From NCBI GenBank assembly GCA_031213475.1, contig JARUPZ010000015.1, positions 9,514,528 to 9,578,527 of the forward strand: a stretch of 64,000 nucleotides of DNA. The letters are read 5' to 3'. Positions 8,461 through 51,475 of this stretch are shown here, in pieces. This stretch comes from Nereocystis luetkeana. Lineage: Eukaryota > Sar > Phaeophyceae > Laminariales > Laminariaceae. The notes under the pieces were generated by a model, which ran no database searches, was not told the DNA's origin, and saw only the letters and a program-made list of their open reading frames with translations. Both the position numbers and the translations under genes were made by a program. Within the stretch, counting starts at the first letter, position 1, and every line of letters starts with the position of its first letter.

Positions 8461-8575
8461 CTGCTCTAGCCTTGCCGATGCCGTGATGGTGGCTCAGCGA
8501 GCCGCCAGCCAATAGGATTTCGTCTCTCGCTGCCTCTTCCAGGGCCGAAAACGCGCCCGTGGGGTTGGAAACCCC
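8461..8575 (-). CDS. Exon 24: AGPS histidine-triplet exon (last one found)
   Basis: 115 bases, phase 0 to 1, acceptor CATATCCACAG, donor GAGCAG|GTGGGT. It encodes [20 protein letters not shown] and [10 protein letters not shown], matching the conserved AGPS block ...[18 protein letters not shown] with its histidine triplet. The frame stays open at the donor, so at least one more exon (ending like ...DPNNIFGNRNLL in animals) should follow. I could not find it between 1 and 8450. Confidence 0.93.

Positions 8576-51475: not shown

Follow-up and report, generated by a model that had tools for sequence, protein, structure and literature searches.

A 64,000-nt stretch of the Nereocystis luetkeana genome (GCA_031213475.1, contig JARUPZ010000015.1, 9,514,528-9,578,527), hereafter the window, carries on its minus strand regions resembling an acyl-CoA-binding protein (ACBP), a fatty acyl-CoA reductase (FAR), a DHAP acyltransferase (AT; GNPAT-like), and an alkyl-DHAP synthase (AGPS), arranged in that order from ~49.5 kb to 8.46 kb (Table 1). 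A splice model of 24 exons, free of stops and frameshifts, joins these regions into a single frame that is open for at least 3,311 codons from the ACBP start; of the model's introns, 22 are GT-AG and one is GC-AG. In family searches of the 465-Mb genome, the minus strand of the window was matched by ACBP (47.6 kb), by FAR in one exon (42.8 kb), and by FAD_binding_4 in one exon (18.5 kb). Frame-by-frame Pfam scans then located the acyltransferase close to 32.2 kb along with weak pieces; the three minus frames of ~8.4-53 kb and a plus frame of 50-64 kb yielded fragments only. The exon-wise family searches are insensitive: the window's own exons are missing from the matches listed for PF01553 and PF02913. 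The remaining exons were found by reading minus-strand frames, partly by resemblance to known sequences, and were tested afterwards, and the splice options between neighbouring anchors were scored with simple, generic home-made splice scores.

Table 1. Exons of the gene model and hydrophobic segments, in window coordinates.
Feature	Position	Strand	Content and evidence
Exon 1	49458..49559	-	ACBP first helix; motif and donor; ACBP Pfam match on spliced piece; 5' limit not fixed
Exon 2	47603..47697	-	ACBP core (...GRAKW); PF00887 match 47599-47706
Exon 3	42790..45003	-	ACBP last helix, then a linker of ~430 residues and the beginning of the FAR NAD(P)-binding region; single open frame
Hydrophobic segment 1	44307..44363	-	ACBP-FAR linker; hydropathy scan, mean 2.46
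Hydrophobic segment 2	44100..44156	-	ACBP-FAR linker; hydropathy scan, mean 2.42
Exon 4	39048..39664	-	FAR including Y-K pair; FARAT profile
Exon 5	35985..37512	-	FAR C-terminal part (IIPVDVV ... LLQRAL), long Gly-rich insert
Exon 6	33019..34025	-	Acyltransferase start, block I HRSYLD; 5' end ambiguous (e.g. 34025, 33950, 33647)
Exon 7	32564..32712	-	Acyltransferase GAFFVQR; 3' end ambiguous
Exon 8	32180..32275	-	Acyltransferase block; 5' end ambiguous
Exon 9	31267..31418	-	Acyltransferase block; FARAT profile
Exon 10	28369..28480	-	Acyltransferase; FARAT profile 647-683, E 4.3e-7
Exon 11	26417..26569	-	Acyltransferase; FARAT profile 684-743, E 0.032 alone; within 121.9-bit domain match
Exon 12	23236..25070	-	Low-complexity linker and AGPS N-terminus, one open frame (654-aa frame)
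Exon 13	22417..22810	-	AGPS; E 1.7e-5 alone against bacterial AGPS N-terminus profile
Exon 14	21641..21769	-	AGPS; GC donor
Exon 15	19787..19927	-	AGPS, FAD-binding
Exon 16	18478..18665	-	AGPS; FAD_binding_4 family match at 18.5 kb
Exon 17	15274..15370	-	AGPS (YGNIEDMV)
Exon 18	13684..13842	-	AGPS
Exon 19	12697..12813	-	AGPS (ASCRLLDN; R aligned to Arg419)
Exon 20	11209..11313	-	AGPS; 5' end ambiguous
Exon 21	10230..10409	-	AGPS
Exon 22	9202..9330	-	AGPS (GACVYFYLA; Tyr aligned to Tyr578)
Exon 23	8461..8575	-	AGPS; ends at splice donor CAG|GTGGGT
Exon 24	-38 to -157, then TGA, outside window	-	Terminal AGPS, LVVGMKRALDPRNVLGARNSLLATQTS-stop; flanking 10 kb

Several other features accompany these exons. 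Directly behind exon 21 lies a diverged partial copy of it (10001-10159, minus strand, 66% identity), which is without the first part but keeps a donor-like GT and is possibly a decaying or alternative exon, and just upstream of exon 16 the beginning of that exon is repeated in part, with a broken frame (18724-18907, minus). Repeat pieces whose translations have common strings occur in two introns of the gene (34100-34250 and 11530-11870, minus), and the intron separating AGPS exons 17 and 18 holds large tandem arrays with a 62-64-base unit (14464-15165). On the plus strand, an open frame at 56780-58567 with an Integrase_H2C2 match and a sub-threshold integrase core match overlaps a 185-bp tandem repeat and is probably a piece of a retrotransposon.

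An earlier, sequence-only reading had described one gene extending over 8461..51475, with 24 minus-strand exons bearing family motifs in pathway order. The modules and their order hold, from ~49.5 to 8.46 kb, but position 8461 is a splice donor rather than the end of the gene, exons at 49.6-51.5 kb are without support, and the count of 24 in the present model includes a terminal exon outside the window. AGPS proteins run ~35 residues further, and these residues are in the last exon, which follows after an intron of 8,498 bases. At the other end no start codon of the gene was found; an in-frame ATG exists at 49826 but was discarded, as it sits inside a ~115-bp dispersed repeat (49740-49860, within 49860-49430) that recurs at 89-96% identity in at least 39 other places of the genome (best 40 of 1083 candidates scored).

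Compatible phases at all 23 junctions, which that reading had put forward as evidence, turned out to carry little weight because anchors in different frames are connected by anything from 1 to 131 compatible splice pairs, including 114 for the FAR-AT joint and 131 for exons 11-12, while exons 13-14 had zero until an anchor was shifted. A comparison of splice scores is circular and carries no evidence, since the sites of the model were picked partly by score. At exons 14-15, 16-17, and 20-21 the spliced sequence aligns gap-free to guinea-pig AGPS, and these splice sites are therefore fixed better than by score alone; the same applies to the joint of ACBP exons 2-3 in comparison with known ACBPs. 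The stretch of AGPS exons 19-20 is ambiguous, and the version used is ~12 residues shorter than guinea-pig AGPS.

By their sequence similarities, the four modules are real. A domain search on the predicted protein, which had been proposed as a check, was made on seven spliced pieces; four of them carried ACBP, NAD_binding_4, Acyltransferase, and FAD_binding_4 with FAD-oxidase_C, all above the curated Pfam cut-offs, and three had no match. The ACBP forms a complete four-helix acyl-CoA-binding domain (PF00887, 79.3 bits with a cut-off of 28.3, E 2.5e-22, profile 2-74 of 76). The FAR matches NAD_binding_4 (PF07993, 121.7 bits, E 4e-35, profile 1-191/258) and displays the GxxGxxG motif as TGVTGLVGQ and the YxxxK motif as YTFTK. 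Its spliced C-terminal piece, where the Sterile domain was sought, had no match in Pfam. In comparisons with nine bacterial proteins that unite FAR and acyltransferase (FARATs), the last FAR stretch, in exon 5, beat 300/300 shuffles against one (L054) and not clearly against the other eight, and two other C-terminal stretches had no significant similarity to any of the nine. The acyltransferase (PF01553, 69.6 bits, E 2.9e-19, profile 16-132/132) contains HRSYLD (HxxxxD) and FLEGTRSR (FxEGxRSR) and is similar to solved GPAT structures at E 4.1e-6 and 1.1e-4. GPAT_C (PF19277) matched neither the spliced acyltransferase and exon 12 pieces nor any exon in the insensitive genome search. The match to the FARAT profile described below and the neighbouring AGPS suggest that this module is a DHAP acyltransferase (GNPAT) rather than a GPAT.

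The AGPS part matches FAD_binding_4 (120.3 bits, E 6.7e-35) and FAD-oxidase_C (107.3 bits, E 1.3e-30), as well as guinea-pig AGPS (E 3.5e-117; 44% identity over a 483-residue stretch) and Dictyostelium ADPS (E 2.2e-64). The alignment retains guinea-pig Arg419, Tyr578, and the His triplet, residues with catalytic roles in AGPS. The N-terminal region of AGPS (WGF.DT.F ... G.RY), spliced from exons 12-13, scored 46.3 bits (E 6.6e-13) against a profile of 23 bacterial stretches (24 were taken, and L044 had no pattern match), and for all 23 stretches none of 300 shuffles reached the pairwise score. The exon 12 piece alone gave E 0.63 with this profile, the two chance matches on the plus strand gave E 8.5 and 9.4, and the region scored -1.5 bits against guinea-pig AGPS alone.

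Bacterial relatives were collected by scanning the AGPS pair alignment against bacterial and archaeal genomes, which returned 206 relatives, and the neighbourhoods of the best 80 were inspected for frames of at least 120 aa. A same-strand single frame with both FAR and AT is present at 10 of the 80 loci; three have AT only, one has a FAR truncated where the contig ends, and 66 have neither, two of these with <500 bases downstream. At none of the 80 does the AGPS frame itself hold FAR or AT, and ACBP had no match among the neighbouring frames of that size, a limit below which small ACBP genes fall. A profile built from ten bacterial FAR-AT proteins, one of them truncated, matches the spliced algal model with 302.6 bits (E 1.1e-93), leaving positions ~313-457 and 741-882 unmatched. 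On the minus frames the matches are collinear, with profile positions 8-136 at 43.6-42.8 kb, 142-238 at 39.7-39.1 kb, 243-313 at 37.5 kb, 458-605 at 33.6-32.2 kb, and 607-743 at 31.4-26.4 kb. Taken singly, several of them are weak (domain E up to 5.1), and out-of-place matches appeared at 41.3 kb on the minus strand (E 0.99) and 2.8 kb on the plus strand (E 4.3). In a quick tree of the window's AGPS, two eukaryotes, and 68 of the 80 bacterial loci (E <1e-60), the algal sequence stands beside bacterial ones, but only a quick tree was made and long branches meet in it, so nothing is concluded on origin. A scan of viral contigs gave 52 pattern matches and zero relatives, and a plasmid search gave FAD oxidases at no more than 39% identity (best 15 of 38).

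Whether the modules belong to one polypeptide depends on the joints between them. The ACBP-FAR joint lies inside the uninterrupted exon 3, whose frame spans ~738 codons (779-aa open frame); at FAR-AT and at AT-AGPS the modules meet at a splice junction. With order-1 shuffles, 0/2000 stayed open for each of four stretches, including the 429 linker codons of exon 3 and 580 codons of exon 12; openness in these GC-rich stretches is, however, weaker evidence than the shuffles suggest because long antisense open frames exist, of 543 and 531 aa opposite exons 5 and 12. Most codon-usage windows agree with the model frame in exon 3 (17 of 23) and exon 6 (7 of 10), but fewer do in exon 12 (9 of 19), exon 5 (7 of 15), and exon 13 (1 of 3), and some of these windows overlap the training codons. 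Long inserts rich in Gly, Ser, and Glu are situated in or between the conserved domains (42790-45003, 35985-37512, 33019-34025, and 23236-25070, minus).

FAR and the acyltransferase are collinear and phase-compatible, as a FARAT-type single frame would be, and their joint crosses an intron with the 114 options mentioned above and an adjacent TGA. The frame would run into this TGA after a single intron base (CT|GTGAGT), and FAR could therefore end there, but the codon neither supports nor refutes such an end because any phase-2 GTGA donor yields one. Recognisable acyltransferase stops in exon 11, and AGPS begins inside exon 12, an open exon of 612 codons with 580 codons open ahead of AGPS. The exon 11-12 joint is in frame, and the exon 12 acceptor is strong by the generic score (9.4). 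Two exon 12 stretches taken for the C-terminus of the acyltransferase had no Pfam match and no significant similarity to the C-termini of the nine bacterial FARATs, and the AT-AGPS joint thus rests on an in-frame splice picked among 131 and on the open exon 12.

On this evidence, the gene probably encodes a single polypeptide joining ACBP, FAR, DHAP acyltransferase, and AGPS. The modules might instead be divided among two or three adjacent genes on the same strand: ACBP-FAR would terminate at the TGA next to 35985, and/or FAR-AT would terminate beyond exon 11 with AGPS starting from an ATG in exon 12. Such an arrangement would make use of the in-frame TGA that straddles the exon 5 donor, of the stop that read-through past exon 11 meets at ~26318, and of in-frame ATGs ahead of the AT domain (model residues 1572 and 1614) and ahead of AGPS (2100, 2200, 2266, 2571, and 2582), and it would agree with the missing AT C-terminal similarity in exon 12 and with the bacterial AGPSs, which occupy their own frame (0/80 fused). 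The same bacterial loci, however, place FAR and AT in one frame beside AGPS in 10 of 80 cases, and FAR-AT fusions have been published for ciliates, amoebae, Naegleria, and Phytophthora infestans (PMC3143110). In addition, exon 12 is open across all 580 codons before AGPS and has the strong acceptor, and an acyltransferase ending at exon 11 would be without profile positions 741-882, so that we regard a division into adjacent genes as unlikely.

A break within exon 3 seems quite improbable. In that case, the ACBP exons would be a separate gene for a tail-anchored ACBP, which we liken to animal ACBD5, with a transcript ending in exon 3, and a FARAT-AGPS gene would start from an in-frame ATG ~40 residues before FAR; two hydrophobic segments after the ACBP and the good placement of the ATG (model residue 486) would suit this, but the ACBP frame has no stop through exon 3, and unspliced exon 3 continues into FAR. 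That the gene is decaying or mis-assembled and yields no full protein is scarcely credible: the incomplete duplicates of exons 16 and 21 nearby, the single GC-AG intron, and introns of up to 8.5 kb could be read in that way, whereas the model exons contain no stop or frameshift and keep the catalytic motifs, the locus sits inside an 11.0-Mb contig, and a second copy that could take over is absent among the genome matches.

The genome searches, which score best candidates only, bear on whether the gene stands alone. All 14 FAR-AT matches and 11 of the 12 AGPS matches belong to this locus, one of the latter being the partial copy of exon 21, and the twelfth lies on contig C31 at 32% identity, in a region also matched by FAD-oxidase_C. 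As no second AGPS, nor a second FAR-AT, was found among these matches, this gene is the only candidate found for the AGPS step. Further matches were obtained for ACBP on contigs C2, C28, and C10, for NAD_binding_4 on C16, and for PF01553 on C21 and C7. The light-harvesting family PF00504 has 68 matches in the genome, and the one compared with solved structures is closest to fucoxanthin-chlorophyll proteins (9ygv FCP17, 317.9 bits over 156 residues), which points to a fucoxanthin-type alga and agrees with a stramenopile. Two FAD_binding_4 matches, L009 and L013 (C13:5091140-5092870), both report a 980-aa open frame and are perhaps one tandem-domain FAD oxidase. Lipid_desat (PF10520) was matched on two contigs, at L123 and L124 (C13:4945090-4948732) and at L125 (C14); this family includes both the plasmalogen desaturase and plant FAD4, and its presence is therefore no guide to plasmalogen production.

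Three enzymes are required to start ether lipids, and the intermediates between them, fatty alcohol and acyl-DHAP, have to be brought together. If the modules act as their relatives do, the ACBP module would bind long-chain acyl-CoA, FAR would reduce one acyl-CoA to fatty alcohol, the acyltransferase would put the chain of a second acyl-CoA onto DHAP to give acyl-DHAP, and AGPS would replace the acyl chain of that product with the fatty alcohol, releasing alkyl-DHAP and a free fatty acid. The balance on one chain would then be two acyl-CoA in, and alkyl-DHAP and one fatty acid out, a stoichiometry that follows from the known reactions of FAR, which forms the alcohol, DHAPAT, which forms acyl-DHAP, and AGPS, which exchanges acyl for alkyl (PMC7375469, PMC13256971, PMC9131029). 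The sequence-only reading had called the protein an assembly line. Its fusion part is probably right, one polypeptide being the best reading in view of the open joint exon, the FARAT precedent, the in-frame splice, and the lack of a second copy among genome matches; the assembly line itself is a mechanism that we infer, together with a single transcript, the enzyme activities, channelling, and membrane anchoring.

The two hydrophobic segments of the ACBP-FAR linker could form a hairpin membrane anchor. The C-terminus (LLATQTS) has no PTS1, and one PTS2-like pattern had no match at 48-53 kb, so a peroxisomal location is not supported. We tentatively picture a membrane-anchored, self-feeding synthase in which ACBP might feed both FAR and the acyltransferase, their products might pass to AGPS, and the hairpin might hold the line on one membrane face, possibly outside the peroxisome matrix, although the odds are somewhat against all of these features holding together. 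The fusion of the three enzymes with an acyl-CoA carrier, if real, would by itself be the most complete covalent form of the ether-lipid pathway known to us, would offer a direct system for testing channelling between FAR, GNPAT, and AGPS, and would lead one to expect alkyl ether lipids in this algal lineage.

The literature gives the middle of the gene a clear precedent. FARAT had been noted earlier from Dictyostelium, correctly, but it is more widespread than that claim implied, being described also from ciliates, Naegleria, Phytophthora, and Myxococcus (PMC3143110, PMC9131029); the FAR-DHAPAT fusions reported are those of Tetrahymena, Paramecium, Dictyostelium, Polysphondylium, Phytophthora infestans, and Naegleria (PMC3143110). 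AGPS has been described as the second enzyme, acting after FARAT (PMC13256971), and in Guillardia FAR and AGPS appear as separate entries (PMC9244630). That the sequence-only reading knew of no protein with all four modules agrees with our search, in which no ACBP-FAR-AT-AGPS protein turned up among the literature matches listed, most subscription journals lying outside its scope. The literature search likewise gave no match for AGPS in stramenopiles, and ether-lipid or plasmalogen synthesis in brown algae was absent from titles and abstract openings among the matches listed.

Compared with known systems, the algal gene is closest in layout to FARAT (TtFARAT/ART1 of Tetrahymena, fatA of Dictyostelium, and the FAR-DHAPAT of Phytophthora infestans and Naegleria), in which FAR is likewise followed by a DHAP acyltransferase in one protein. 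It is collinear with the bacterial FARAT profile over 8-312 and 458-740, but has ACBP in front, AGPS behind, and large low-complexity inserts, and profile positions 313-457 and 741-882 are not recognised in it. The Dictyostelium FARAT is peroxisomal and has a C-terminal SKL (PMC7375469), which the algal protein is without; SKL is a trait of the Dictyostelium protein and need not define the family. In Myxococcus, AGPS adjoins a FAR-GNPAT protein (PMC9131029); this operon, MXAN_1676 (AGPS) - MXAN_1675 (FAR-GNPAT), encodes the same three enzymes side by side, but AGPS is a separate protein and comes first, whereas in the algal gene it comes last and in the same frame. ElbD of Myxococcus, with FAR-, ACS-, ACP-, and AGPAT-like parts, is also a multidomain ether-lipid protein that shares FAR and an acyltransferase with the algal gene, but it has ACS and carrier-protein domains, and neither ACBP nor AGPS is described in it (PMC9131029). 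Mammals carry out the same reactions with separate proteins, FAR1 on the cytosolic face and GNPAT and AGPS, said to act as a complex, in the peroxisome lumen (PMC9131029). The algal gene is thus a FARAT extended by ACBP in front and AGPS behind: the FAR-AT fusion was already known, and the ACBP and AGPS additions are new.
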